39,833 nucleotides of DNA from Candidatus Eiseniibacteriota bacterium (GTDB lineage Bacteria > Eisenbacteria > RBG-16-71-46 > CAIMUX01 > WJJG01): the NCBI GenBank assembly GCA_023129715.1, contig JAGMBO010000006.1:1-39833 (forward strand). The letters run 5' to 3'. This document shows positions 15,322-35,191 of the stretch, in pieces. Positions within the stretch are counted from its first letter, which is position 1. Every line of letters starts with the position of its first letter. The notes below the pieces were generated by a model. It was given only the letters and a program-made list of their open reading frames with translations. It was not told the DNA's origin and searched no databases. A program made the translations under genes and the position numbers.

Positions 15322-15493
15322 CCGGTCTTTCCCTGTCACCGCTCGGACCCACATGCTCGCCCCCCGATCGTCTCTTCGTTCCCGGTCCGACGCGCCGAGC
15401 ATGTGCGCGAGCCGGCGAGCATGGGTGCGGGGGCGGGATGAGCGGTACCGGCAGAAGCGTTGATGCAAAGTCGAGATGTCGGAGGACTACAAG

Positions 15494-17335
15494 GTGACCC
15501 AGCAGGAAAACAACGGCAAGGACCACGCAGAACCCATCCCCGCACCCGCCGCGGATGCCGCCGCGCCGGCTGCGCAGAACAACTCACCGGCTACGCAGAA
15601 CAACGCGTCGGCTCCGCAGGACAACGCGCCGGAGGGGCAGGACAACGCGGCGGGGGATCGGAGTGGCACTGGAGACTTCCGTCTCGGCCAGCGCGTCTGG
15701 GGCCCCATCTTGCGTATGACCGAGAATCATGCCGTCGTCAGCCTGAGCGAGCAGGGTCTTGCCGAGGGCACACTCGACTTGGTTCATCTGCGCGATGATT
15801 TCGGCAATCTCAGTGTCGCCGAAGGGGATGAGGTGCAAGCCTTCGTCGTCAAGCTCGAACCGGCGATCAAGCTCGCTCCCAGCCTCTACCCTCCCGCGGC
15901 CGAGGTCATGCGCCGCCTGCGCGAGGCAATGGATCACGATGCCGCGGTGCGCGGCCGGGTCACCGGAGTCAATCGCGGAGGCCTCGACGTGCAGATCGAC
16001 GGCCGCCGCGCATTCTGCCCCTATTCGCAAATCGAGCTCGCCCGCTGTGAAGACCCCACGATCTACCTCAATCACATCCTCGACTTCCGCGTCCTGGAAC
16101 TGGAGGAAGAGAAGAGGCGCATCGTCCTCTCGCGCCGCGCGATTCTCGAGGAGGAGCGCAAGGAGAAGCTCAGTGAGCTGCGCGGGCAGCTCAAGGCGGG
16201 GGCCGAGTTCGAGGGTGTCGTCCGGCGTCTACAGCCCTTCGGGGCCTTCGTCGATATCGGCAACGGTGTCGAGGGCCTCGTGCATGTCTCGGAGATTTCC
16301 TACGACCGCCTCGACCATCCCAGCGAGGTTCTGCGCGAGGGCGAGAAAATCCGCGTCAAGGTTCTCGATGTCTCGCCTGGCAAGGGGGGCCGTGATCGCA
16401 TCAAGCTCTCGCTGAAAGCGACGATCCCTGACCCCTGGACGCAGGTCACCGAACTGTTCCACGAACGCGACATCGTCACCGGCATCGTGGTGCGGGTCAT
16501 CGATTTCGGGGCCTTCGTGAAGCTGCATCCCGGCATCGAGGGGCTCCTGCACGTCTCGCAGTACAAGCCGCGCGGGGCGGGTGACGCCCCCCCGACACCG
16601 CCGGCCGCCGCGCAGCAGGCACCCGTGACCGATACCGGCGGGGCGACCGCGGAACCTGCCACCGAGGCAGCCGTGACCGATGCCGGCGGGGCGACCGCGA
16701 AACCTGCCACCGAGGCGCCCGTGGCCGATGCCGGCGGGACGACCGCGGAACCTGCCACCGAGGCAGCCGTGGCCGATACCGGCGGGGCGGCGGCGGTGTC
16801 CGATGCGACTCCGAAGGCGGGCGAGGAGATCACCGTCCGGATCACCCGCATCGATGCCCAGCGCCGGCGCATCTCGCTTGCACTGCGCGATGAGGATCGT
16901 CCCGACCAGCCCAGAGTCGATCACGACGCCATCGTTGGCGAGACGGTCGAGGGGGTCGTGCGCTCGATCAAGCGCTACGGGGTCTTTCTCGACCTGCCCT
17001 CTCTCGGGTCGTGGGTCAGCGGGCTGCTGCCGAGTTCGGAAACTCCCTTTGGGCGCGAGACGAACATTGCCCGCAAGTTCAACGAGGGAGACAAGATACG
17101 GGTTGTGATCATCGAGGTCGATGAACGCGGAAGGATCCGTCTGAGCCAGCGACGCCTCATCGAACGCGAGGAGCGGGGTGCGGCGGGCGGCCGGGCCGCA
17201 GGCGGCAAGGGCGTCTCGACGGCGCCCCCCGGCGGGTTCAACCTGATCGCTGAGGCCTTTCAGCGGGCCGAGCAGCGCCGCAAGAGCAAGAGCGGGGAAC
17301 AAGAAGGCAGCGAACAGAAAACCGAAGAAGGCTAG
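15494..17335 (+). CDS. S1-domain RNA-binding protein, ribosomal protein S1-like (five S1 domains)
   Basis: A 613-residue protein with five S1 OB-fold domains, as in bacterial ribosomal protein S1. The GTG at 15494 has GGAGGA seven bases upstream and is preferred to the ATG at 15476, which has a weak site. The N-terminus holds a Gln/Asn-rich repeat. S1 domains begin near FRLGQRVWGPILRM, AVRGRVTGVNRGGLDVQIDGRRAFCPYSQIE, EFEGVVRRLQPFGAFVDI, DIVTGIVVRVIDFGAFVKL and ETVEGVVRSIKRYGVFLDL. The third is the most canonical (GLVHVSEIS). The fourth is split: between GIEGLLHVSQ and EEITVRITRI stands an insertion of ~75 residues, mostly a 16-residue tandem repeat. The C-terminus is basic and Gly/Ser-rich. 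It could be RpsA itself or a paralogue; infA upstream favours a translation role. Confidence 0.85.
   Translation: MTQQENNGKDHAEPIPAPAADAAAPAAQNNSPATQNNASAPQDNAPEGQDNAAGDRSGTGDFRLGQRVWGPILRMTENHAVVSLSEQGLAEGTLDLVHLRDDFGNLSVAEGDEVQAFVVKLEPAIKLAPSLYPPAAEVMRRLREAMDHDAAVRGRVTGVNRGGLDVQIDGRRAFCPYSQIELARCEDPTIYLNHILDFRVLELEEEKRRIVLSRRAILEEERKEKLSELRGQLKAGAEFEGVVRRLQPFGAFVDIGNGVEGLVHVSEISYDRLDHPSEVLREGEKIRVKVLDVSPGKGGRDRIKLSLKATIPDPWTQVTELFHERDIVTGIVVRVIDFGAFVKLHPGIEGLLHVSQYKPRGAGDAPPTPPAAAQQAPVTDTGGATAEPATEAAVTDAGGATAKPATEAPVADAGGTTAEPATEAAVADTGGAAAVSDATPKAGEEITVRITRIDAQRRRISLALRDEDRPDQPRVDHDAIVGETVEGVVRSIKRYGVFLDLPSLGSWVSGLLPSSETPFGRETNIARKFNEGDKIRVVIIEVDERGRIRLSQRRLIEREERGAAGGRAAGGKGVSTAPPGGFNLIAEAFQRAEQRRKSKSGEQEGSEQKTEEG
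15566..15649 (+). repeat. In-frame 21-base repeat (4 copies), S1 protein N-terminus
   Basis: Four diverged 21-base units encode heptapeptides PAAQNNS, PATQNNA, SAPQDNA and PEGQDNA. They lie in the disordered tail before the first S1 domain. Confidence 0.8.
16619..16795 (+). repeat. In-frame 48-base repeat (about 3.6 copies) inside an S1 domain
   Basis: Units start at 16619, 16667, 16715 and 16763, each 48 bases, encoding variants of the 16-mer APVTDTGGATAEPATE. The fourth is partial. The array occupies the loop between beta strands of the fourth S1 domain. Confidence 0.9.
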
Positions 17336-18286: not shown

Positions 18287-19657
18287 ATGAGCTTGGTTCG
18301 CCCGGCCCCGCGGGGTCGACCCGACCACCAGACGCGCCCCCCCAGGAACCCCCTGCTGCTCCCTCTCGCCCTGATTCTCGGCGGCATGCTCATGGGTTTC
18401 CTACCGGGCAGCGTGACGAGTGCCAGCGGCCAAGTCGAGACCGAGGCCGGCGGCCAGGTCGAGACCGAGACCGGCGGCCAAGTCGAGACCGAGGCCGGCA
18501 GGCGGGCCGAGGGTGCCGCCGGCGACGCCGTGCCCCAGACCGCACCGCCCCCCCCCGAGATCGAGGCGCGGGATACGCCCAGCGACCGGGGTGAGAATAT
18601 CACCGTCACCTGGACCCCACCGCCCGAGGACACCGGCGTCGGCGGCCCGGTGTTCGGCTATCGCATCGAGCGCGGCCTCTCCCCCGAGGGCCCTTTCGAG
18701 CATATCGGCCAGGCCTCTCCCGGCGCCACGCGCTACGACGATACCAATGTCGCCGACGGTCTCCCCTACTACTACCGAGTGATCACGCTCACCGCCTCCG
18801 CCGAGGGCACCTCGGGTATCGGCGGCCCGGCCATCGCCGCGCCGCAGTGGATCAACACAAACCAATGGAACGTCTTCATCGTCCTGGCCCTGCTGCTCGG
18901 CTTCAACCTCTACTTCATTGAGCACATCAAGGCGGGGGGCAAGCCCTTCATCCGCAAGATCGCCGGACTCGAGGCGATCAACGAGGCGGTCGGGCGGGCG
19001 ACGGAGATGGGCCGTCCGATCCTCTTCGTCCCCGGAATCCAGGACATGAATGACATTCAGACCGTCGCCGGGGTCACGATCCTCAGCTACATCGCCCGCA
19101 CGGTGGCCGAGTACGACTCGCGCCTGGTCGTGCCGACCAGCCGCGCGCTGGTGATGACCACCGCGCGCGAGACGGTCAAGGAGGCTTTCCTCGCCGCCGG
19201 GCGCCCCGAGTCCTATGACGAGAGCTCGATCTACTATATCACCGACGAGCAGTTCGGCTATGTCGCTGGCGTCAATGGTTACATGGTGCGCGAGAAACCG
19301 GCGACCTGCTTCTACATGGGCGCCTTTTTCGCCGAGAGCCTGATCCTCGCCGAGACGGGCAACTCGATCGGGGCGATCCAGGTCGCCGGCACCGCCATGC
19401 CGGCACAGCTGCCCTTCTTCGTCGCCGCCTGCGACTACACTCTGATCGGCGAAGAGCTATTCGCCGCCAGCGCCTATCTTTCCGGCGAGCCGAAACAGCT
19501 CGGCAGCATCAAGGGCCAGGATGTCGGGAAGTTCATCGGCATGCTCTCGGTCGCCGTGGGCGTGCTCGTGCTGTCGATTGCGATGATCACCGGTTGGGAT
19601 CCGCTAGTCCGCGTGGCGGAGTGGATCCGCATCTTCTGGTCTACGGAGCTTGCGTAA
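18287..19657 (+). CDS. Fn3 plus DUF6754-like membrane protein (first gene of membrane cassette)
   Basis: A 456-residue membrane protein with a clear AAAGGAG ribosome site. A signal or first membrane helix lies at ~21-47. A Gly-Gln-Val-Glu repeat (three octads) follows, then one fibronectin type III domain at ~88-186 (ITVTWTPP, FGYRIERG, YYYRVITLTA). A membrane helix spans ~193-212 and a conserved cytoplasmic region ~215-420 includes GRPILFVPGIQDMNDIQTVAGVTILSYIA, YYITDEQFGYVAGVNGYMVREKPATCFYMGAFFAESLILAETG and GTAMPAQLPFFVAACDYTLIGEELFAASAYLS. A last helix lies near 425-445. The layout and conserved blocks fit the uncharacterised DUF6754 family as I know it. It overlaps the next start by one base (TAATG). 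Role unknown; it is presumably the central subunit of a complex. Confidence 0.8.
   Translation: MSLVRPAPRGRPDHQTRPPRNPLLLPLALILGGMLMGFLPGSVTSASGQVETEAGGQVETETGGQVETEAGRRAEGAAGDAVPQTAPPPPEIEARDTPSDRGENITVTWTPPPEDTGVGGPVFGYRIERGLSPEGPFEHIGQASPGATRYDDTNVADGLPYYYRVITLTASAEGTSGIGGPAIAAPQWINTNQWNVFIVLALLLGFNLYFIEHIKAGGKPFIRKIAGLEAINEAVGRATEMGRPILFVPGIQDMNDIQTVAGVTILSYIARTVAEYDSRLVVPTSRALVMTTARETVKEAFLAAGRPESYDESSIYYITDEQFGYVAGVNGYMVREKPATCFYMGAFFAESLILAETGNSIGAIQVAGTAMPAQLPFFVAACDYTLIGEELFAASAYLSGEPKQLGSIKGQDVGKFIGMLSVAVGVLVLSIAMITGWDPLVRVAEWIRIFWSTELA
18428..18499 (+). repeat. In-frame 24-base repeat (3 copies)
   Basis: Three nearly identical 24-base units at 18428, 18452 and 18476 encode GQVETEAG, GQVETETG and GQVETEAG between the signal helix and the Fn3 domain. 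Confidence 0.9.
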
Positions 19658-20337
19658 TGAAGCGAACGATTCCCCTGCTGATCACGGGCGTTGTCGGAAC
19701 CGTGCTGGTTGTCGCCTATTTCATTCCCCATCCGCCGTTCGACAGCCTGCGCGAGGATTTCAGCATCTTCTTCGACATCATCGCCTCGGTCGCCTTCATC
19801 CTCGGCGGCGGCAACCTGATCCGCATGCACGGCAGTCGGATCTCGCGCAAGGAGAGCAACTGGCCCTACAGCGTCGTCACCGTGCTCGGCTTCTTGCTGA
19901 CGCTGTTCGTGGGCCTGACCAAGCTGGGCAACCCGAACGGATTCCTGGGGTCTTCGGTCACCACGTCGGGCAGCTACTTCTACGCGGCCTATGAATACAT
20001 CTTCCGGCCGGCGGCGGCGACGATGTTCGCCCTGCTGGCGTTCTACGTCGCCTCTGCGTCGTTTCGGGCTTTCCGGGCCAAGAACGCCGAGGCAACGATT
20101 CTGCTGCTGGTGGCATTCATTGTCTTGATCGGACGCACATTCGTCGGAGAGCTGCTGACGAGCTGGCTACCCGACTCCCTGCACTTCCTGACGATTCCCT
20201 ACCTGGTCGAGAAGATCATGGTGGTGCTCAACTTCGCCGGCAACCGCGCGATCATGATCGGCATCGCGCTGGGGATCGTCTCGACGTCGCTGAAGGTCAT
20301 CATCGGCATCGACCGCTCGTATCTGGGATCGGGCTAG
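19657..20337 (+). CDS. Polytopic membrane protein, second gene of membrane cassette
   Basis: A 226-residue protein whose ATG overlaps the upstream stop (TAATG), implying coupled translation. About six hydrophobic segments are visible: residues ~4-22, 36-50, 70-88, 115-135, 140-160 and 195-215. Charged loops include RMHGSRISRKES and a conserved-looking GLTKLGNPNGFLGSS. I recognise no named family and see no catalytic motif. Its neighbours are all membrane proteins on the same strand with gaps of at most about 60 bases, so it probably works in a complex with them. Confidence 0.75.
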   Translation: MKRTIPLLITGVVGTVLVVAYFIPHPPFDSLREDFSIFFDIIASVAFILGGGNLIRMHGSRISRKESNWPYSVVTVLGFLLTLFVGLTKLGNPNGFLGSSVTTSGSYFYAAYEYIFRPAAATMFALLAFYVASASFRAFRAKNAEATILLLVAFIVLIGRTFVGELLTSWLPDSLHFLTIPYLVEKIMVVLNFAGNRAIMIGIALGIVSTSLKVIIGIDRSYLGSG

Positions 20338-20391
20338 GCTGCGGCCGACCGCCCGCCGGTGCGCCTGCCGGGCGAGCGAGAGGAGATCGAA

Positions 20392-21294
20392 GTGAGCCGC
20401 TTCATGACGATTGTCGAGAAGCTCGACACTCTGGACAAGCGCTGGGTGTTCCTGGTCGTCGGCCTGGCGGTGGTTGTCTCGACCATCTTCCGGCTGACGT
20501 TCCCCGAGCGGCCCACGCCGATGGTGTGCGCGATCTACGAGAAGATCGAGAGCCTGCCCGAGGGATCCCGGGTGCTGTTGCCCTTCGACTACGACCCGGG
20601 CAGCGAGCCCGAACTCCAGCCGATGGCGGACGCCTTCGTGCGCCACTGCTGCGAGAAGGGACTGGTGATGTACTTCATCGCCCTCTGGCCCCTGGGCCAG
20701 AACATGGTCGATGGAGTGATCAGGCGGGTCCTGACCGTCGAGTACCCCGACCTAGAGTATGGCGTCGACTACGTGGATATGGGCTACAAGGCGGGTAACG
20801 AGGGAGTCATCGCGGTGATCCTCACCGACCTGAAGAAGCTCTACACGACCGATGCCCACGGCAGCTCGATCCAGCGGATCCCCATGATGGAAGGGATTTC
20901 GAATATCCGCAGCTTTGACCTGATCTTGAACATCAGCGCAGGCTACCCAGGCCTGAAGGAGTGGATCCAGTACGCGGGCACGCCGGGCAATATCCCCGTC
21001 GCGGGAGGCTGCACCGCGGTCCAAGCACCACTGCTCTACCCCTACCATCCCGAGCAGCTCCTCGGATTGATGGGCGGGATCAAGGCGGCGGCCGAGTACG
21101 AGGCGCTGCTTCTCCAGGGCTACCCGAAGTTCCGCAACGACAAGAATCGCTTCCAGACGGCGCTGACCCGGATGGGGCCGCAGACGATTGCGCACCTCTC
21201 GATCGTCTTCTTCATCATCCTGGGGAATATCACGTTCCAGATCCTCCGGCGCCGGCGGGCGCAGGAGCGCCAGTCACAGCAGAGGCAGGAGTAG
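20392..21294 (+). CDS. Bitopic membrane protein with large extracytoplasmic or cytoplasmic domain, third gene of cassette
   Basis: A 300-residue protein. I prefer GTG at 20392 (GAGGAGA seven bases upstream) to a GTG at 20359 or the ATG at 20404. One helix lies near residues 18-36 and another near 265-287, close to a basic RRRRAQE tail. The intervening ~225 residues form a soluble domain with SLPEGSRVLLPFDYDPGSEPELQPM, KGLVMYFIALWPLGQNM, YVDMGYKAGNEGVIAVI, SFDLILNISAGYPGLKEWIQY and a small-residue-rich VAGGCTAVQAPLLYPY. This may be an alpha/beta fold. No known family comes to mind. The following gene begins four bases after its stop. Confidence 0.75.
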   Translation: MSRFMTIVEKLDTLDKRWVFLVVGLAVVVSTIFRLTFPERPTPMVCAIYEKIESLPEGSRVLLPFDYDPGSEPELQPMADAFVRHCCEKGLVMYFIALWPLGQNMVDGVIRRVLTVEYPDLEYGVDYVDMGYKAGNEGVIAVILTDLKKLYTTDAHGSSIQRIPMMEGISNIRSFDLILNISAGYPGLKEWIQYAGTPGNIPVAGGCTAVQAPLLYPYHPEQLLGLMGGIKAAAEYEALLLQGYPKFRNDKNRFQTALTRMGPQTIAHLSIVFFIILGNITFQILRRRRAQERQSQQRQE

Positions 21295-21297
21295 GCG

Positions 21298-22095
21298 ATG
21301 AAGCGGATCATGTGGCTCGGGATTCTGGCGATCATCCTCCTGGTACTGGCCTTGCGCACCGCGCAGGGTCACATGCTCAACCCGTTCGACTCCTTCCACG
21401 GGTTCGGCACCTGGTTCGCCGCGCTGCTCACGCTGGCGATCATGAGCTTTCTCTACAACGACAATCCCGTCTACCGATTCGCGGAACACCTCTTCGTGGG
21501 AGTCTCGGCAGCTTACTGGATGGTGATGGGCTTCTGGTCGACGCTCGTGCCGAACCTCTTCGGGAAGCTCTGGCCGAGTCTAACGGCGAAGTTGTTCATC
21601 CCCGGAATCGCCGACCAGCCGCGCGATCCCCTCTGGTTTCTCTATTTCATCCCGCTCGTCTTCGGGATCCTGCTCCTGCTGCGCCTGGCGCCGAAAGGCG
21701 GGTATCTCTCGCGCTGGGCGTTGGCGCTGATCCTCGGGACTACTGCCGGGCTGCGGCTGATCGCCTTTCTAACCGCCGACTTCATGGGCCAGATTCGCGC
21801 GACGCTCAACTCCGTCGCCGGCTACGTGCATCCGTCGCTGCCCGGGGGAACCGGGGTGTTCAGCTTCGAGCAGATGTTCTGGGACGTCGTCTCCGTGATC
21901 GCGATCATGGCGGCCCTCTCCTACTTCTACTTCTCCAAGGAGCACAAGGGCAACTTCGGCCGCTTCTCGCGGGTCGGCATCTGGGTGCTGATGATCACCT
22001 TCGGGGCCGGCTTCGGCTACACGGTGATGGGGCGTATCGCGCTGCTGGTCGGACGGGTCGAGTTCCTGCTCGTCGACTGGCTCCACGTGCTCTAG
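21298..22095 (+). CDS. Polytopic membrane protein, fourth gene of cassette
   Basis: A 265-residue protein starting just after the preceding stop (TAGGCGATG). There are about seven or eight hydrophobic segments, the first at ~4-20 (IMWLGILAIILLVLAL). Motifs include HGFGTWFAALLTLAIMSFLYNDNPVYRFAEHLFVGVSAAYWMVMGFW, PRDPLWFLYFIPLVFGILLLLRL and the late GFGYTVMGRIALLVGRVEFLL. Family unknown to me. It completes the four-gene unit; the next gene is convergent after 41 bases, so the transcript ends here. Confidence 0.75.
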   Translation: MKRIMWLGILAIILLVLALRTAQGHMLNPFDSFHGFGTWFAALLTLAIMSFLYNDNPVYRFAEHLFVGVSAAYWMVMGFWSTLVPNLFGKLWPSLTAKLFIPGIADQPRDPLWFLYFIPLVFGILLLLRLAPKGGYLSRWALALILGTTAGLRLIAFLTADFMGQIRATLNSVAGYVHPSLPGGTGVFSFEQMFWDVVSVIAIMAALSYFYFSKEHKGNFGRFSRVGIWVLMITFGAGFGYTVMGRIALLVGRVEFLLVDWLHVL

Positions 22096-26036: not shown

Positions 26037-27986
26037 TCAACGATCGTCGGGGGGCATCTCGATCAACGTGACACCCCACAGATGGGGATCGGTGGGCACT
26101 GCCTCGTTCCAGCGCCCGAAGGCATGAGAATCGTCGCTCTCATAGTGGAGGCGGTAGATCCCCGCCGGCAGCTCGAGGAAGCGTTCGGTGCGCCGGTTCT
26201 TCTTGGCGCCTCCGGCGTGACGCGTATCCTCATAGCGCATCTTCCAGACCGTCCGGCCGGACTCCTCGTCCACCAGCCAGCCATAGTCGCACATCGTTCC
26301 ATGCTGACCCTCGCCGAGGGCAATGATGCGCACCGCGAGCGGCTCCTGCACCTTGAAGCGGACGTCTTGGTGGACGCCATTCCCAACGGGCGCGATGCGG
26401 ATCACGGCGCGATGCTCGAGCGCCTCCACGGAGAGATCGACCGCATCCATGCTGAAACTCTCACCCAGGCCGCAGATGCGGACCCCCCAGGCGCGCGGAT
26501 CGAAGGGGGAATGCTTGCTCCACCCCGCATAGGAGTGGGCCTCATCGGTCACGTAGCAGACCCGGTAGTCGCCCGGATCGAGTGCCACCGCCTCCTCGAC
26601 GATGCGATTGCGCAACTCGCCGGACGCATAGCGGCCGCGATTGAACTCCATTGTCCAGACCTTGCGCAGCGAGTAGAGTTCCTCGATCCATCCATAGTCG
26701 AAGTAGCAATCCTGCTTCTCGTCCCACTCGCCCAGCGCGCGCACGCAGAGTTGGACCGGCTCGCGCACATGGAAGACCTCGCTGCGAAACTCCGCGTCCC
26801 CGACGCGATCGATCTCGAGGATCTCATTCTCGACGGGCGGATCAAGCGTGACCTCCGTGGCCCCCGGAGCGAGCGGCTCGAGCGGGAACAGCGTCAGGCC
26901 CCACGACTCCGGGTCATAGGGCGGCTGGCTGTTCCAGTCATCGAAGGCATGCGAATCGTCGGTCGCGTAGCAGACCAGATAGCGGCCCGGCTCGAGACGC
27001 ACCTGCTCATCGAACACGCGGTTCTTCTGCGCTCCGCCGGCGTGATCGGTGTTGACCAGGCTCATCTCCCACGCGCGCTCGCACCGCTCGCGATCCACGA
27101 TCCAGGCGCCATCAGCGAACCCGTGGTCGCCGGCGGTGTACTCGCCGAGGGCGAGGATGCGCACGACCAGGGGTTCCTGGACGCGCAGCTCCGCGGTGCG
27201 ATAGCTGTCGTTGCGCGTGCGGTCGAAACGCAGCAAGGCACCCAGGTCGGGATCCTGAGGCTCAGCAAACGCGGACTCCGCGGGCTCGCCGGCGGCCAGG
27301 CGGACTTCAGCATACCAGTCGCGGGGCGTGCCGAACTCGTTCCAGCGAACGAAATTGCCCCCCCGGATCGCCACACTGCCGATGTCGAAAAAATCGAGGA
27401 TCTTGATCGACTTCTTGATCGGGAAACTGCCCCCGATGGCGGAGAAGTAGAGCGCGTAGTCGCCGGCGGGAAGTCGCCGGAAGTCCCGCTGGATAAGATT
27501 GTCTTTGCGGTCCGCGGGCTTCGCCCGGTGGGCGTCCATCTGCCAGGCGACGCGGCGCGTGCGCAGATCGAGGATCCAGGCGTAGGCGAGCATCGCATCC
27601 ATATCGCTCGATCCACTGCCGACCGCCTCGACTTCGATCTCCGCATCCCGACGCAGGGAGAAGTCTTGGCGGTAGAGACCCTTCTGCCAGATGCGCTCGA
27701 TCTCGGCGATGATCTCACCGGCGCGGGCCGGTTGTGGGCAGAATGCGCCGGAAACGGAGAGGAGCAGGGCCCCGAGCAGCGCCTTGCGCGGCAGGCGGCC
27801 GGCCGGCCGGCCCGTGGGCCAAGCGCAGCGGCCGGTGGAAACCTCGGAGCGACCGGCGGGAACCTCGCGGCAACCGGCGGGAACCTCGGAGCGGCCGGCG
27901 GGAACCTCGCGGCGGCCGGCGGGAACCTCGCGGCGGCCGGCGGCGTGCCGGGTCCGGATCGCTCCACCCACGAGCCTGCCTCTCAT
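26037..27986 (-). CDS. Secreted protein with four repeats of an unnamed ~105-residue domain
   Basis: A 649-residue exported protein. The ATG complementary to 27984-27986 has GGGAGG seven bases upstream. Unusually, ~65 residues, largely an AGRREVP heptad repeat, precede the hydrophobic signal core (LPRKALLGALLLSVSGAFC, ~65-83; cleavage perhaps after PARA at 89). The mature part has a degenerate first domain at ~105-195 and three clear copies at ~265-370, ~405-508 and ~545-645. Each copy carries (V/Q)-x-EPL-type start, RALGE-like strand, a D-x-G-W or D-G-A-W turn, W-x-M, a D-(D/E)-(S/A)-H-(A/S)-(F/Y)-x-x-W motif and a (Y/F/T)DP-x-x-WG closing strand. The D-x-x-H and Trp residues could form a ligand or metal site. 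I know no named family. It probably acts at the envelope. Confidence 0.75.
   Translation of the reverse strand: MRGRLVGGAIRTRHAAGRREVPAGRREVPAGRSEVPAGCREVPAGRSEVSTGRCAWPTGRPAGRLPRKALLGALLLSVSGAFCPQPARAGEIIAEIERIWQKGLYRQDFSLRRDAEIEVEAVGSGSSDMDAMLAYAWILDLRTRRVAWQMDAHRAKPADRKDNLIQRDFRRLPAGDYALYFSAIGGSFPIKKSIKILDFFDIGSVAIRGGNFVRWNEFGTPRDWYAEVRLAAGEPAESAFAEPQDPDLGALLRFDRTRNDSYRTAELRVQEPLVVRILALGEYTAGDHGFADGAWIVDRERCERAWEMSLVNTDHAGGAQKNRVFDEQVRLEPGRYLVCYATDDSHAFDDWNSQPPYDPESWGLTLFPLEPLAPGATEVTLDPPVENEILEIDRVGDAEFRSEVFHVREPVQLCVRALGEWDEKQDCYFDYGWIEELYSLRKVWTMEFNRGRYASGELRNRIVEEAVALDPGDYRVCYVTDEAHSYAGWSKHSPFDPRAWGVRICGLGESFSMDAVDLSVEALEHRAVIRIAPVGNGVHQDVRFKVQEPLAVRIIALGEGQHGTMCDYGWLVDEESGRTVWKMRYEDTRHAGGAKKNRRTERFLELPAGIYRLHYESDDSHAFGRWNEAVPTDPHLWGVTLIEMPPDDR
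27840..27944 (-). repeat. In-frame 21-base repeat (5 copies) before a signal peptide
   Basis: Units begin at 27840, 27861, 27882, 27903 and 27924, exactly 21 bases apart, built on AACCTCG(G/C)(A/G)GC. On the minus strand they encode AGRREVP-type heptads between the start codon and the signal core. Confidence 0.9.
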
Positions 27987-28044
27987 GCCATGACCTCCCT
28001 CTCTGCCCAGTCGAGGCCCGACCCGTCGAGTGGGCTTGCCCTAC

Positions 28045-29001
28045 CTAGCGGTTCTGCGCACGGTCCCGCCTAGCGCTTCTACGCGCGCTGCCCGGGGAAG
28101 TTGCAGCCCGCCCCTCGCCCAGCCCCACCGTGACCCCTGCGCGCAATTCACGCAAAGCCTGATATGGACAGTCGTTGGGCCGACCGATCCCCTCCAGGCA
28201 GAGGAGTTCGCGGCGTCGGCGGCCCCGGGGCGGCCCTCCGGGCCCAGCGGGGGTCTCAACATCGACCAGCACGCCGCGTTCGCAGCGCAGGCAGCGCTCC
28301 GGCTGATCGTGGAGCGGCACGGCCCCCAGACAGTCGAGCAATGCCCCGTCCCAGCGGGGCGGCGCCTCGCCGCCGCGCTCCTCGACCCTCAGGCGGCGCG
28401 GCCGGTCCCCCAGCAGGCGCCCCCGGTCGAGGCGCACCCAGGCCTCCGCCTCCACCCGATCACCGGCCGCGAGTCGCAGACGCTCCTGCTGGCCCCGGCT
28501 GACCGGAAGGTAGATCGGGTCGTCGAAGCCCTGAAGTCCGACATAGGCGCGCTCGAGACGCAGCAGAAACCCGCGCAAGTGCGTGCGGGCGCGGGAGCCC
28601 TCGAGCACCTTGACCAAGCAGGGGCGGATGTCGCTCACCCGTCCGCCGACCTCCACAGGGCGCCGGGCGTGGCCCGCCAGCCACTCGTCGAACTCGGCGC
28701 ACTCGGCGAGGAAGGCAACATAGGCCTCGGCCGAAACCTGCAGCTCCGGGTGCGCGTGGATCTTCTCCTCGTCGTAGTACCGGCACTGGGTGCAGTTGCT
28801 ACCGACGTGGCGGTAGCCCTTCGGGCAGCGTCCCCCCTTGCCGAGGAGTTTGCACTTCCAGACGAAGCTGACGCAGCCTTCGGGGTAGCAGCCTTTCTCG
28901 CAGAGGACATGGAAGGCCGAAACCCGATGGTCGAAGCGGCGGTGGACCTCTTGCCTGCAGGTGAAGATATCGTCGCGCTTGTAGCAGTTGCGCATACCCA
29001 C
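28045..29001 (-). CDS. Cysteine-rich protein, function unknown
   Basis: A 318-residue protein. I favour the GTG complementary to 28999-29001, seven bases from GGAGG, over the ATG two codons later; the frame extends upstream to 29658 but reads antisense through other genes. The first ~75 residues hold nine cysteines (NCYKRDDIF, HVLCEKGCYPEGC, WKCKLLGKGGRCPKGYRHVGSNCTQCRYYDEEK), suggesting metal or iron-sulfur sites. The middle (~90-220) looks like a beta-rich, OB-like region (GGRVSDIRPCLVKV, LRLAAGDRVEAEAWVRLDRGRLL). A C-terminal pair, CLRC, and a later CPYQALRELR may add another metal site. It is cytoplasmic by appearance. No family recognised. Confidence 0.65.
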   Translation of the reverse strand: MGMRNCYKRDDIFTCRQEVHRRFDHRVSAFHVLCEKGCYPEGCVSFVWKCKLLGKGGRCPKGYRHVGSNCTQCRYYDEEKIHAHPELQVSAEAYVAFLAECAEFDEWLAGHARRPVEVGGRVSDIRPCLVKVLEGSRARTHLRGFLLRLERAYVGLQGFDDPIYLPVSRGQQERLRLAAGDRVEAEAWVRLDRGRLLGDRPRRLRVEERGGEAPPRWDGALLDCLGAVPLHDQPERCLRCERGVLVDVETPAGPGGPPRGRRRRELLCLEGIGRPNDCPYQALRELRAGVTVGLGEGRAATSPGSARRSARRDRAQNR

Positions 29002-29199
29002 GGGGCAACCTCCGGCTGCGAAGCTGGAAACCCATTCTAGGACCAGCGGGAGGGGAATTGCACGGGTTTCTCGGCCGGCCGCCACGAGCCCCTGTGGACA
29101 CCCCCCCCAGGGATCGTCTATCGTTGATCGTTGATCGTTCGTCACCACGGGGCCTTTCCGAGACGGGGGTCCCCGTGGGCGCAGGGTTGGGGAGGAATC

Positions 29200-29358
29200 A
29201 TGGAGCAGCACGCCGTCGCCGGGCTGGAAGAAAAGAGTGACGTCAAGATCACGATGCACGCGCCCGACATCGATCGCAACCGCCCGGTGGCGGCGATCAA
29301 GTGGGGCGACGGCACGGTGATCGATACAGTGTACAAGGTGAACTGCGCGGATGGATGA
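29200..29358 (+). CDS. Small 52-residue protein, function unknown
   Basis: The start has GGGGAGG four bases before ATG. The product, MEQHAVAGLEEKSDVKITMH and onwards, ends in IKWGDGTVIDTVYKVNCADG and has no signal or membrane segment. Its stop at 29356-29358 overlaps the start of the sulfatase-like gene at 29351, which implies translational coupling. No family is recognised. The strong ribosome site and overlap argue that it is real. Confidence 0.6.
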   Translation: MEQHAVAGLEEKSDVKITMHAPDIDRNRPVAAIKWGDGTVIDTVYKVNCADG

Positions 29359-31003
29359 TGGCGCGGCGAGGAGGGCGACGCTCAAGGGCGCAGCGCCAAC
29401 CGTCGGCGTTACGACGGCCGCTGAGGCAGGGACGGCCTCGCCCCCCTCGGCACCACCGACCGTGACGAAATGGACGATCTTGGCGGCCTGGGCGGTCCTG
29501 GCCGTTTTGGCGGTCCTCACCTCCGGCCTGTTGATCGGCCCCGCAGGCTGCGGCGGCGCATCTCCCCCGCCACCGAATCTGATCCTGATCATCCTCGATA
29601 CCGTGCGCGCCGATCGTCTTGGCTGCTCCGGTAGCGCCGCCGGGCTGACGCCCAACATCGATGCCTTCGCCGAGCGGGGCGTGCGCTTCGCGCAGGCGTA
29701 CGCCCAGGCACCCTGGACGCTCCCCTCGGTGGCCTCAATCCTGACCTCACGCTACCCGATCCAGCATGGCGCCGCCGGGCGGCTGAACGCCTTCCGGCTT
29801 CTCGAACCGGAGGCTGTCACTCTGCCCGAGGTTTTTCGGGATGCGGGTTGGACGACCGGGGCGATCATCAATGTCTTCTTCCTGACCGAGACCTTCGGCA
29901 TGACCCAGGGGTTCGAATCGGTCGATGTGACCGAATCGCACAACAACCGCGAGGTGCGCCGCGCGGGGCCGACAACCGATGCCGCGCTCGCCTGGATCGA
30001 TAGCACCAGCAACCCTGCCGGTCGCAGTGCCGCCGAGGATGCCCCCTTCTTCCTTATGGTCCACTACTTCGACGCTCATCTGGTCTACGACCCGCCTCAG
30101 CCCTTTCGCGCCGCCCATGCCGATCCACGGGATGCCGAGGGCGATGACTATCTCTTCGGTACCGTGGCCGACATGATCACCTTGCGGCAAGGCGATGCGG
30201 TCGTCGAGGGCGACCTGCTGCCCCGACTGGAGCAGCTCTACGACGGCGAGGTTGCCTACGTTGACAGCGAGATCGGCAGGCTGCTCGACGGCCTTGCCGC
30301 CCGCGGACTGATCGAGAACACGGTGATCGCGATGGTGGCCGACCATGGGGAGGAGTTCGGGGACCATGGGGGCTTCGAGCATGGCCACACGCTCTATGAC
30401 GAGCTGATTCATGTGCCCCTGATCTTGAGCGGTCCTGGAACCGGCGGCAGTCGGGAAACCGCGCCGAGCGGGGATTCCGCCCTAGACCAGGCTACACGGC
30501 CGCAGGAAAGGACGGTCGGGGCGACGGTGCGCCTGATCGACCTCGCCCCAACCCTCTGCGAGCTGGCCGGAATCGCACCCGATCCCGCCTTCGTCGGTGA
30601 GAGTCTGCTGCCGCTGATCGAGCGAGTCGGCGCAGACGAAGAGCACGGCGAACGGGTGGCAGGGGACGACCAGGCGAAGCCGGGCGGGCCGGGGAAGCTG
30701 GGCGCCGATCGTCCCGTGTTCGCCGAGGGCAACATGTGGGGGGCCAGCGGGGCCAGTTGGCGCCGGGGGGGCGAGAAGATCATCTGGAAACCTGAGACGG
30801 AGACGATCGAGCTCTACGCAATCGAAGTGGATCCGCTGGAGCGCAACGACCTTGCCCAGACCCGGCCCGAGCGGGTAGCGGCGCTCACCGAGGAACTGCG
30901 TCTGATCGCCCGCACGCTGGCTGCCGGCCGGCGGGCGGGTAGCGCCGCCCCATTGACCGAGGAGGATCGCGAGCGCCTGCGCTCACTGGGATACATCAAG
31001 TAG
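29351..31003 (+). CDS. Sulfatase-like alkaline-phosphatase-superfamily hydrolase, membrane-anchored
   Basis: A 550-residue protein. A hydrophobic helix at ~36-60 (TILAAWAVLAVLAVLTSGLLIG) ends in PAGCGG, either a membrane anchor or an atypical lipobox. The catalytic domain starts with NLILIILDTVRADRLGC (metal Asp). The nucleophile region reads APWTLPSVASILTSRYP: Thr stands where sulfatases have Cys or Ser of C/S-x-P-x-R, so formylglycine cannot form. Later metal ligands are VADHGEEFGDHGGFEHGHTLYDELIHVPLILSGPG. The C-terminus has RLIDLAPTLCELAGI and LERNDLAQTRPERVAALTEELR. It probably cleaves or transfers a phosphate or phospho-alcohol group rather than sulfate; this is inference from the Thr. 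Gene 52-residue upstream is coupled. Confidence 0.85.
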   Translation: MDDGAARRATLKGAAPTVGVTTAAEAGTASPPSAPPTVTKWTILAAWAVLAVLAVLTSGLLIGPAGCGGASPPPPNLILIILDTVRADRLGCSGSAAGLTPNIDAFAERGVRFAQAYAQAPWTLPSVASILTSRYPIQHGAAGRLNAFRLLEPEAVTLPEVFRDAGWTTGAIINVFFLTETFGMTQGFESVDVTESHNNREVRRAGPTTDAALAWIDSTSNPAGRSAAEDAPFFLMVHYFDAHLVYDPPQPFRAAHADPRDAEGDDYLFGTVADMITLRQGDAVVEGDLLPRLEQLYDGEVAYVDSEIGRLLDGLAARGLIENTVIAMVADHGEEFGDHGGFEHGHTLYDELIHVPLILSGPGTGGSRETAPSGDSALDQATRPQERTVGATVRLIDLAPTLCELAGIAPDPAFVGESLLPLIERVGADEEHGERVAGDDQAKPGGPGKLGADRPVFAEGNMWGASGASWRRGGEKIIWKPETETIELYAIEVDPLERNDLAQTRPERVAALTEELRLIARTLAAGRRAGSAAPLTEEDRERLRSLGYIK

Positions 31004-31841: not shown

Positions 31842-34800
31842 TCATCGCAGCGCCACGAAACGCTCCCGCGCATCGTCGAGCTCCGGAATCCCCTCGTCCG
31901 CGTCGCGCCAGATCTCGAGGAACTTCTCGTACTCCCGCAGAGCGGCTCGCCGTGATCCCCGCTCCTCGTACAGCTTGGCCAGACGGTAATGGTAGATCGG
32001 ATGGATCGAGCGCCGCCCCCGTTGGTTGGGATCGGTGACCGTCAGAAGCTCATACTCCGCAACTGCCGCATCCAGGCTTCCCGCTCGTGCGTGCACCCGC
32101 GCGACTACGTCCTGCGGGAACCAGGGGTCCGTGACGAGTTGGATGAACCTGTGCTGGGCGATGACCTCCGGCGGCCTGGCTCCCTCGGCCACGGCGCGGG
32201 CCGCATCCAGGGAATCCTCGTGCAGAAGCAGCTCGCATCGCAGGAGCCCGTGCCGGAATTCGAGCAGCTTCCTCCATTGATCGTCCGTCACACGGGGCAT
32301 GACGTCCTGCATCTCCGCAAGCCTGTGCCGCGTGGAATCCGGCTGTCCCTGCCGAAGCTCGATCAGCCCTCGGCGGAAGGCATACAGGATCTGGTAGGTC
32401 ACACTCGACGGGTAGTGCTGCGCGCAGAGATCGCTCCACTGGTCGTTGGCACTCCGGCTGCGCGTCAGGTCTCCCATGGCGTAGTAGACCCAACCGCGGA
32501 ACCAGAACGCCAGGAACTTGCCGAAGACGAAGTCCACGTTGGCGGCCAGCCTTTCCCCCTGCTCGAGGTGCATCAGGGAGTCTGCGAAGCGACCCCGGAG
32601 CAGATGGAAGATCGCCTTCGACCAAGCCCCCTCGGCCGCCATGCCGGCTCCGGGCGTCATGGTCGCAACTGCCTCGATCCACCGTCGCATCTCGTCGTAG
32701 TCTTCCCTCAGATGCGCGATTGCCCCCAACTTGAGGGCCGAGGAGCGGAAATCGGATTTGATATCTAGGGCTTCCCGATACGCAGCGGCGGCCTCGTCGA
32801 GCCTTCCCAGGCGGAAATACATGTCTCCCATGGAATCGAGTGCGTTGGCATCCTCAGGGGCGACGGCCGTGTAGCGCTCAATGCAAACGATGGCCTCGTC
32901 AATGCTGTCCATGTCGGCATAGGCATACGCCAGCACGTTGAGGGCGATCCCATAGATGGGATCCAACTCCAGCGCCCGGTGCCACGCCCGCACGGCTCCC
33001 GGGTAGTCCTTCTGCGCTTCGAGGCACTGCCCCAGGAACAGAAAGCCGCGTTTGTCCTCGGGATACTTCTCGGTCAGCTCCCGGCAGACGCGCAGCTGCT
33101 TCTCGCGATCCTTCTCGATGTTGGCGGCGTAGAGCGCCTCGATGTAGAGCCGCTCCCGCTCCGTCGCGCGGCCCGCAAACGCCTTCGCTCTCTCGAAGGC
33201 CTGTGACTCCGCTCGAGCGTCGAAGAGCTGACTGGAGGCCAGGGCCAGATATAGGTGGGCCACAGCAAAGGTCGAGTCAATCGCGACTGCCTTCTGGAGA
33301 TATCGCTTCGCCTCTGCAGCGTAGACTTGCTGTATCGCCGCTCTGCCCTTCAGGAAGTAGCTGTAGGCCTCCATTGAGCTTGTGGTGACATCCGCGATGT
33401 GCGGCTGAGTGGCTCGGATCCGATGCTCGGACAGCCCCACCGCCCGCGCGATCTCGTGGCTCAGCTCGTCGATCTGTTTCTCCAGGATGCTACCCACGCC
33501 TTGTCCTCGTGAGCCGGCGCTCTTGAGGAGGATCTTGCTGTCGACGTCGAGGACCTTGACATCCGTCGCGAAGACATCGCCGGCCTTGACGTAGCTTCCC
33601 AGGACGATCGTGTGGATGCCCTCATGGCTACAGAGCTCAAACCCGAGATCGCGGCCGATGACCTCCACATCCGTTCTGCCCATCTGTGCCAGCACATCCC
33701 GCATCCGCTCCCAGGTGGCCACACGCAGGTACGGAGACTGCTCAAGGCTGGTGATCAGCAGGTTGGGGATCGCCTCCTGCAGGTAGTCATAGGAGCTGTC
33801 CCCGGTCTGATTGGTAAAGCTGATCACCGCGATGGGGGTGGGATCGGAGATCGCGATCTGGTGGAAGAAAAGAGGGCGGAGGAACAGGAACGCCACGGCC
33901 AGAAGGGCGATCACGCCCACGGGAAGGAGAAACGTCCTGACGCGGGTCCGTCGGGGCGGAGGTTGGATCACCGTCCCGGATGCAGGCGTGGTCACCGTCC
34001 CGGGCGCCGGCGTGATCACCGTCCCGGGTGCAGGCGTGATCACCGTCCCCGGTGCAGGCGTGATCACCGTCCCGGGCGCCGGCGTAATCCGGCGCGAGAT
34101 CTCTGCGGTGCGCAGCTGTTCGCGTAGGCGCCGCAGGTCGGCCAGCAATTCATCCACGTGCTGGTAGCGATGAGCCTTCTCGGGCTCGAGGGCCTTGCCG
34201 ATGATCCGCTCGAGTTCCACCGGCACGCCCGTTCGCAGTCCGGTCACGTTCTCGGGCGTTGCGTTCAGGATCGAGTAGAGGATTGCCTGCTCGTGCTCAC
34301 CCTTGAAGGGAAGCCGGCCGGTGACCATCTCATAGAGAACGACTCCCAGCGCCCAGATGTCGGACTGGTGATCGGCTTCATCGCCGTGTGCCTGCTCGGG
34401 CGACATATAGGCGATCGTGCCGAGCGTCGTGCCGAGCTTCGTCAGACGCGTCTGCTCGCGCGTTCTCGCCAGCCCGAAGTCGAGGATCTTCACTTGGCCG
34501 GTAGCCAGCAGCATGATGTTGGCCGGCTTGATGTCACGGTGCACGATGCCGCTGGCATGCGCGGCCTGGATCGCCTCGGTGGCCTGTGTCGCAATGTCCA
34601 GGACCTCGTCTAGCTTCAGTGGACCAGACGCGATCTTGTCTCCGAGGCTCGGGCCCTCGACATACTCCATGGCGAGGAAGACCTGCCCATCGACCTCATC
34701 GATCTCGTAAACGGTACAGACATTGGGATGACTGAGGGAAGCAACCGTCTGCGCCTCATGGACGAAGCGCGCCTTGGCTTCCGACTCCCCAACCATCTGA

Positions 34801-34925
34801 GGTGAGACGAACTTCAGCGCAACGGTCCGGCGGAGCTTCGTATCCTCCGCCTTGTAGACGACCCCCATGCCGCCCTCGCCGAGCTTCGTGAGGATCCGGT
34901 AGTGGGAAATCGTCTGGCCGATCAT
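31842..34925 (-). CDS. Membrane Ser/Thr protein kinase with TolB-like and TPR domains
   Basis: A 1027-residue protein starting at the ATG complementary to 34923-34925, with GGAAGGA upstream; the frame runs on to 35051 without support. Residues ~9-270 are an active Hanks-type kinase: Gly loop GEGGMGVV, Lys38 in VALKF, HRDIKPANIML, DFGLAR, activation-loop threonines and MSPEQA. A linker ~285-340 has five TPAPGTVI octads. A membrane helix follows (FLLPVGVIALLAVAFLFLRPLF). The extracytoplasmic part begins with a TolB-like N-terminal domain (PIAVISFTNQTGDSSYDYLQEAIPNLLITSLEQ) and continues as TPR repeats (AVAIDSTFAVAHLYLA, ALELDPIYGIALNVLAYAY, AAYREALDIKSD), to the C-terminus. It would sense or bind partners through the TPR array and phosphorylate proteins inside. 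Confidence 0.9.
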   Translation of the reverse strand: MIGQTISHYRILTKLGEGGMGVVYKAEDTKLRRTVALKFVSPQMVGESEAKARFVHEAQTVASLSHPNVCTVYEIDEVDGQVFLAMEYVEGPSLGDKIASGPLKLDEVLDIATQATEAIQAAHASGIVHRDIKPANIMLLATGQVKILDFGLARTREQTRLTKLGTTLGTIAYMSPEQAHGDEADHQSDIWALGVVLYEMVTGRLPFKGEHEQAILYSILNATPENVTGLRTGVPVELERIIGKALEPEKAHRYQHVDELLADLRRLREQLRTAEISRRITPAPGTVITPAPGTVITPAPGTVITPAPGTVTTPASGTVIQPPPRRTRVRTFLLPVGVIALLAVAFLFLRPLFFHQIAISDPTPIAVISFTNQTGDSSYDYLQEAIPNLLITSLEQSPYLRVATWERMRDVLAQMGRTDVEVIGRDLGFELCSHEGIHTIVLGSYVKAGDVFATDVKVLDVDSKILLKSAGSRGQGVGSILEKQIDELSHEIARAVGLSEHRIRATQPHIADVTTSSMEAYSYFLKGRAAIQQVYAAEAKRYLQKAVAIDSTFAVAHLYLALASSQLFDARAESQAFERAKAFAGRATERERLYIEALYAANIEKDREKQLRVCRELTEKYPEDKRGFLFLGQCLEAQKDYPGAVRAWHRALELDPIYGIALNVLAYAYADMDSIDEAIVCIERYTAVAPEDANALDSMGDMYFRLGRLDEAAAAYREALDIKSDFRSSALKLGAIAHLREDYDEMRRWIEAVATMTPGAGMAAEGAWSKAIFHLLRGRFADSLMHLEQGERLAANVDFVFGKFLAFWFRGWVYYAMGDLTRSRSANDQWSDLCAQHYPSSVTYQILYAFRRGLIELRQGQPDSTRHRLAEMQDVMPRVTDDQWRKLLEFRHGLLRCELLLHEDSLDAARAVAEGARPPEVIAQHRFIQLVTDPWFPQDVVARVHARAGSLDAAVAEYELLTVTDPNQRGRRSIHPIYHYRLAKLYEERGSRRAALREYEKFLEIWRDADEGIPELDDARERFVALR
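33966..34085 (-). repeat. In-frame 24-base repeat (5 copies) in kinase linker
   Basis: Five units of 24 bases start at 33966, 33990, 34014, 34038 and 34062. On the minus strand they encode TPAPGTVI octads (one TPAPGTVT, one TPASGTVI). They lie between the kinase domain and the membrane helix and extend the linker. Confidence 0.92.
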
Positions 34926-35191
34926 GGGGTCCTTCCGGCTAGCGAAACAGGCAACAAGGTGTTGCAGGCTCAGCTTCCCGGCAACCGGACAGCAGAGGCC
35001 TTCCCGAGGTGCGCACGGTCGGTTGCGGCTGCGAGTGTACGGGAGGACCATGGGCGGGGCCAGGGGGTTCTCGCTGCAGGCTACCCCGCCGGCTGCAGGG
35101 TAAAGGGGACTATCTCGTCAATTGGCCGAATCGTGCGGCGATACTGCGTCCTCAACCCGCGGGTGGGGCAGCAGTTGATGCCCCAAAGGCC

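Follow-up and report, generated by a model that had tools for sequence, protein, structure and literature searches.

The four genes of the window

The window, by which we mean the whole stretch of 39,833 nucleotides that was analysed, carries four closely packed genes on the same strand (A to D, Table 1). The TAA stop codon of A overlaps the ATG of B in a TAATG at 19655-19659. B stops at 20337 and is followed, after 54 bases, by the likely GTG start of C at 20392, which is preceded by a GAGGAG ribosome site, and 3 bases separate the stop codon of C from the ATG of D. GC3 is 0.88-0.90 for each reading frame from A through D. The initial annotation had described a packed cassette of four same-strand genes here, and its coordinates proved exact.

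Table 1. Positions of the cassette genes, of other features of the window and of features at related loci.
Feature	Sequence	Position	Strand	Description
Gene A	window	18287..19657	+	456 aa; signal/TM-Fn3-TM-DUF6754-TM; PF20539
Gene B	window	19657..20337	+	226 aa; polytopic, about 6 hydrophobic segments; family-less
Gene C	window	20392..21294	+	about 300 aa; TM helix, soluble Rossmann-like domain, long C-terminal TM helix
Gene D	window	21298..22095	+	265 aa; polytopic, about 6-7 helices; family-less; GFGYTVMGRI motif conserved
S1 protein	window	15476..17335	+	repeat insert rich in alanine and threonine; five S1 RNA-binding stretches
Two large ORFs	window	26037..29658	-	649 and 537 aa; no Pfam match at E 0.001
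Kinase	window	31842..35051	-	1069 aa; serine/threonine protein kinase containing TPR repeats
Insertion after A	L103	5561..11908		restriction/defence-like genes, judged from translations
C-D fusion	L113	12304..14028	+	natural in-frame fusion, Zixibacteria chromosome
P-S-M-E set	L156 (contig C137)	7088..15744		stretch in which gcvT-gcvH-gcvPA-gcvPB are directly followed by P-S-M-E
Divergent M-E fusion	L248	3923..6898	-	example from loci L248-L257

Profile searches of Pfam and NCBIfam placed one of the four proteins in a named family. A is a full member of DUF6754 (PF20539), which it matches with an E-value of 4.7e-118 and 393 bits (curated cut-off, 27 bits), and the same profile matches all 75 of its aligned relatives. 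The searches returned nothing above cut-off for B and C and no match for D. The structure model of A (mean pLDDT 87, mostly >90 in the DUF6754 domain) starts with a signal/transmembrane (TM) helix and a low-complexity linker and continues with an Fn3 domain (residues ~90-183), a TM helix (191-215), the DUF6754 domain (226-399), built of six beta-alpha units in a Rossmann-like arrangement, and a long helix (402-435). The Fn3 domain is weak in sequence (E=0.059) and clear by fold, matching an Fn3 domain of titin with E=3.7e-06 and a TM score of 0.80. This agrees with the layout first proposed for A: signal, Fn3, helix, conserved domain and last helix. Fn3 matches swamped the fold searches with the whole protein in both libraries, and a search of solved structures with the DUF6754 sequence gave a single chance match (E=0.89).

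For C and D we modeled the natural fusion of the two proteins (L113; mean pLDDT 80). The C part comprises a TM helix, a six-stranded Rossmann-like domain and a long TM helix, and the D part has six to seven helices, modeled with a moderate confidence that is lower than for C. The layout anticipated for the remaining genes, two polytopic proteins (B and D) and one with a soluble domain between two helices (C), was confirmed. The fold search with the fusion retrieved generic Rossmann matches only (best E=0.026) and no specific solved relative. The secondary-structure elements of the domains in A and C follow one another in like order with undetectable sequence similarity, and we rejected the two as sequence homologues (hhalign probability 4.8%). 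From the positive-inside rule we infer that the DUF6754 domain of A is cytoplasmic and the soluble domain of C periplasmic.

Alignment of 177 cassettes revealed 35 positions of A that are at least 98.5% identical, many of them charged and densely clustered in the DUF6754 domain. The invariant residues are P6, R137, G202, G206 and G217 in B; D65, E73, D153, Q221, E236, Q263, H267 and N278 in C; and N56, E63, Q165, S213, T242 and R246 in D. Three of those in C (Q263, H267 and N278) are polar residues located inside its C-terminal TM helix. Two of the sequence blocks that had been singled out as conserved-looking, GTAMPAQLPFFVAACDYT and GFGYTVMGR, are largely conserved over the 177 cassettes; the third, GYPGLK of C, varies even among paralogues.

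Elsewhere in the window we noted a protein with S1 RNA-binding stretches, two large ORFs and a protein kinase (Table 1). A gene for a related kinase adjoins another cassette (L009).

Copies, spread and inheritance of the cassette

The genome of the window, a 4.83 Mb metagenome-assembled genome (MAG) of Candidatus Eisenbacteria, contains five complete A-B-C-D cassettes, each on a contig of its own and each with copies of B, C and D. The initial annotation was right about the cassette and missed both its multiplicity and the single P-S-M-E set (described below) that the five cassettes share. We rejected MAG contamination as the source of the five copies, as complete or single-contig genomes (G012, CP070824 and CP070633) likewise hold several cassettes. 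Within the phylum, DUF6754 is present in 45 of 47 genomes, including all 26 of good quality, at 1-7 copies per genome; it is absent from the 14 well-known genomes used as controls. There are three copies in 9 of 9 genomes of one family and exactly one nearly throughout another. Scanning GTDB genomes, we retrieved at least 556 DUF6754 relatives from about ten phyla, named here as the MAGs were deposited. The carriers include Zixibacteria, Planctomycetes, Neomarinimicrobiota, Cloacimonadota, Latescibacterota and Coatesbacteria as well as Fermentibacteria/Aegiribacteria, Stahlbacteria, Caldithrix, Gemmatimonadota and others. Among sampled Planctomycetota, 38 of 147 genomes carry the domain. A phage or plasmid origin was also rejected, with none of the relatives found in viral contigs or in plasmids.

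The genes stand in the order A-B-C-D in 178 of 202 DUF6754 loci (177 intact and one with D in two pieces), and most of the others are cut off by the end of a contig or by a stretch of N. This constancy of order, like the presence of five copies in a single genome, goes far beyond chance. We identified three real exceptions (L103 and the planctomycete loci L134 and L140), and D is present elsewhere in all three genomes; L117, with 2.1 kb of room, is a further candidate. In L103, from a Neomarinimicrobiota strain, a restriction-like insertion lies between A and the expected site of B-C-D (Table 1). In Zixibacteria the cassettes form tandem arrays, three to an array. As a separate observation, the cassettes of two Cloacimonadota loci (L135 and L145) adjoin a set of genes resembling an ECF-type ABC transporter and a MobB-like gene, a neighborhood that we did not see in other phyla.

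A mirror-tree analysis of 115 cassettes compared pairwise distances across the four proteins; the correlations were calculated from the 51 cassettes that have at least one other in their genome or locus. The four distance matrices correlate at 0.81-0.85, and shuffling the partners within each genome or locus reduces the correlation to 0.15-0.25 (maximum of 0.51 in 500 shuffles). Duplicated cassettes have, therefore, not swapped partners; they duplicate and descend whole, as expected of specific complexes. A tree built from 177 concatenated cassettes resolves positions 1, 2 and 3 of the zixibacterial arrays as one clade each (support of 0.97-1.0), and the three clades lie in different parts of it. 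Further, the window cassette groups with those of Planctomycetes (0.935) and another cassette of the same genome (L008) with zixibacterial position 3 (0.993). Thus, the cassette paralogues predate these phyla. Direct-coupling analysis of the B-D, C-D and B-C pairs placed ~40% of the top pairs between proteins, close to the no-signal level; with ~150 effective sequences, too few to separate coupling from shared ancestry, we discarded this result.

The order and co-inheritance of the genes indicate that A-D very probably form one membrane complex. Co-transcription of mere neighbors would fit the few genomes in which B-C-D lie apart from A. Yet the order is maintained over about ten phyla, duplicated cassettes keep their partners and D is still present where the cassette is split, which makes mere neighborhood highly improbable. 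The original proposal of a defined machine instead of loose neighbors is supported by the same evidence (order in 178 of 202 loci; mirror-tree correlations): the four families occur together in fixed order almost without exception and are inherited as a unit.

The partner genes P, S, M and E

Clustering of the genes neighboring the cassettes identified four recurrent partners (P, S, M and E). The exact order P-S-M-E-A-B-C-D was found in 21 loci, S-M-E-A-B-C-D in 11 and E-A-B-C-D in 21; in the cultured planctomycete Thalassoglobus neptunius KOR42, A adjoins E. The cassette was correctly recognized as a four-gene unit in the initial annotation, which missed the four genes that usually accompany it. 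P (~146 aa) is a PH-like membrane protein with weak similarity to bPH_6, and S (~130 aa) has no family. M (~610 aa) is a member of the MutL family of ASKHA proteins (PF13941; E=6.3e-128 in a homologue and 413 bits for the copy in the window's genome), and its phosphate-1, phosphate-2 and adenosine motifs (DCGSTTTK, DIGGATTD and SGG) are conserved in 10 aligned members. It scores 224 bits with the GlmL equivalog profile (NF040745; curated cut-off, 475) and 162 bits with the glmL_fam subfamily (cut-off, 204), so M is GlmL-family-like and not GlmL. No adenosylcobalamin-dependent mutase was recognized among the recurrent flanking families or at the M locus of the window's genome. E (~375 aa) combines a barrel-sandwich domain with a KOW-like end, has weak similarity to RnfC_N, biotin-lipoyl and RND-adaptor domains, and carries no recognized lipoyl-lysine motif.

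Within the phylum, 43 of the 47 genomes contain E and 44 contain M; A, E and M occur together in all 26 of good quality, and the two genomes without A also lack E and M. E was likewise found in all 17 cassette-bearing genomes that we checked singly (for 16, the starting point was a locus from another search); G054 has a divergent E only. The usual ratio is one full-length E and one M for 1-7 cassettes. The window's genome has a single P-S-M-E set, with no cassette adjoining and with glycine-cleavage genes immediately upstream (L156, Table 1). The gcvPA-gcvPB genes also adjoin the system in three Fermentibacteria loci (L138, L141 and L148), possibly reflecting a metabolic link or shared regulation. 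Coupling to glycine cleavage as a general explanation was rejected, as this neighborhood fails in Planctomycetes and most Zixibacteria loci. M-E fusions adjoin cassettes in Neomarinimicrobiota, and a second, divergent M-E fusion (850-1000 aa; L248-L257) is found in Eisenbacteria and other phyla. The divergent fusion has no A-D cassette nearby, and M-E is therefore not necessarily confined to A-D.

A membrane-bound enzyme, in which A and C would use their Rossmann-like domains to bind nucleotides or like substrates and act on a lipid or envelope precursor, is a possible reading that we consider unlikely. M-E could then be a chaperone for maturation or reactivation, much as GlmL-type proteins probably are for cobalamin mutases, a role that is doubtful to the same degree. 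The membership of M in the GlmL/MutL family is consistent with such an enzyme, and the nearly invariant, often charged positions in the domain of A resemble an active site. A also has a weak similarity to the MtnA/eIF2B family that recurs in 15 of 75 members and slightly favors ligand binding, although its best E-value (0.045) is below significance. We recognized no cofactor or catalytic motif, however, and nucleotides would be scarce on the outer face, where C is placed. Furthermore, two conserved polytopic subunits exceed what a membrane anchor needs.

The ASKHA fold of M, with a weak match to FtsA, could also point to a structural or morphogenetic assembly of the envelope, with M as an FtsA/PilM-like, actin-like ATPase scaffold tethered by A-D. 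The Fn3 domains and variable outer regions of A and the retention of ancient paralogues in tandem fit this explanation. M is, however, far less similar to FtsA (13.5 bits; cut-off, 31.8) than to GlmL and hydantoinase, and the FtsA/PilM scaffold proteins do not include it by this measure. The presence of DUF6754 in about a quarter of sampled Planctomycetota would be odd for a core scaffold, and cell-division or peptidoglycan genes were not noticed among the recurrent neighbors, leaving an envelope scaffold decidedly unlikely. Least credible is a relative of Rnf/Nqr that would pump ions by means of redox reactions and in which E would replace RnfC/NqrA. The barrel-sandwich similarity of E to RnfC_N (22.3 bits with a cut-off of 25.6; E=1.4e-4 for one member) and to rnfC (E=0.021) is in line with such a pump, but A-D match no membrane, FMN-binding or iron-sulfur families of Rnf/Nqr and the constant partner is the ATPase-like M instead of a redox protein.

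Proposed architecture and comparison with known systems

By analogy with transporters that share an energy-coupling unit, we propose that M-E probably acts as a shared energizing unit on A-D. A-D would be the membrane module of a larger system and P-S-M-E its soluble part, with M as the ASKHA ATPase, E as a barrel-sandwich/KOW adaptor and S and P as small accessory proteins. B and D would form the core in the inner membrane, flanked by the Rossmann-like DUF6754 domain of A on the cytoplasmic face, often with Fn3 outside, and by the similarly built domain of C on the outer face. The most likely docking site of M-E would be the domain that A exposes to the cytoplasm. Binding or hydrolysis of ATP by M-E may then cause conformational changes that pass via B and D to the outer face and move or energize something across the membrane. 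As in ECF transporters, one M-E unit could serve several anciently diverged membrane modules. Against a shared unit stands the lack of any cassette next to M-E in the window's own genome, and the best-known relatives of M (GlmL) assist enzymes as accessory proteins and are not motors of transporters. We give this architecture, in which a shared M-E unit would serve a single complex, about an even chance, an estimate that leaves the output aside. The output itself may perhaps be transport or the transfer of energy across the membrane, which is a guess.

A bolder reading, which we hold only tentatively and consider improbable, is that the system belongs to a new class of primary membrane machines, in which ATP would be used by a GlmL-like ASKHA ATPase where others employ an ABC, P-type or rotary enzyme. 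Equally speculative is its content: a single soluble motor that would serve several ancient, exchangeable four-subunit modules in the FCB and PVC groups and in neighboring candidate phyla. If an ASKHA ATPase does drive the system, it would provide a new way of coupling ATP to a membrane process; if it does not, what remains is a highly conserved complex that reaches seven copies in a single genome. Undescribed, conserved, multi-copy membrane machines spread over some ten phyla are rare. Some of the carriers are cultured planctomycetes, so gene deletion and co-purification are feasible.

In the openly accessible literature that we searched, we found no mention of DUF6754 and nothing relevant on GlmL, and the domain goes unmentioned in the searched passages of a study of essential genes in Planctopirus limnophila (PMC10632474). 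The earlier description of the cassette as undescribed is supported. The Pfam entry PF20539 comprises one domain without a function; B-D, P-S-M-E and the multi-copy organization are absent from the sources searched. M clearly belongs with the GlmL/MutL proteins (PF13941; NF040745) and has their three nucleotide-site motifs. M differs from them in its setting, an operon with membrane proteins and without a recognized cobalamin mutase. Rnf and Nqr resemble the proposed system in having a barrel-sandwich protein (like E) on the cytoplasmic side beside several membrane subunits. They differ in that A-D match no RnfA/D/E-type, flavin or iron-sulfur families and in the ASKHA ATPase as partner. ECF transporters (EcfAA'T with many S components) share with the proposed system the organization of one soluble energizing unit per genome and several membrane modules. 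In contrast to them, A-D, P, S, M and E include no ABC ATPase or EcfT families, and the modules are four-gene cassettes. None of the known systems tested fits, and we consider the system to be new in category, its final place depending on its function.
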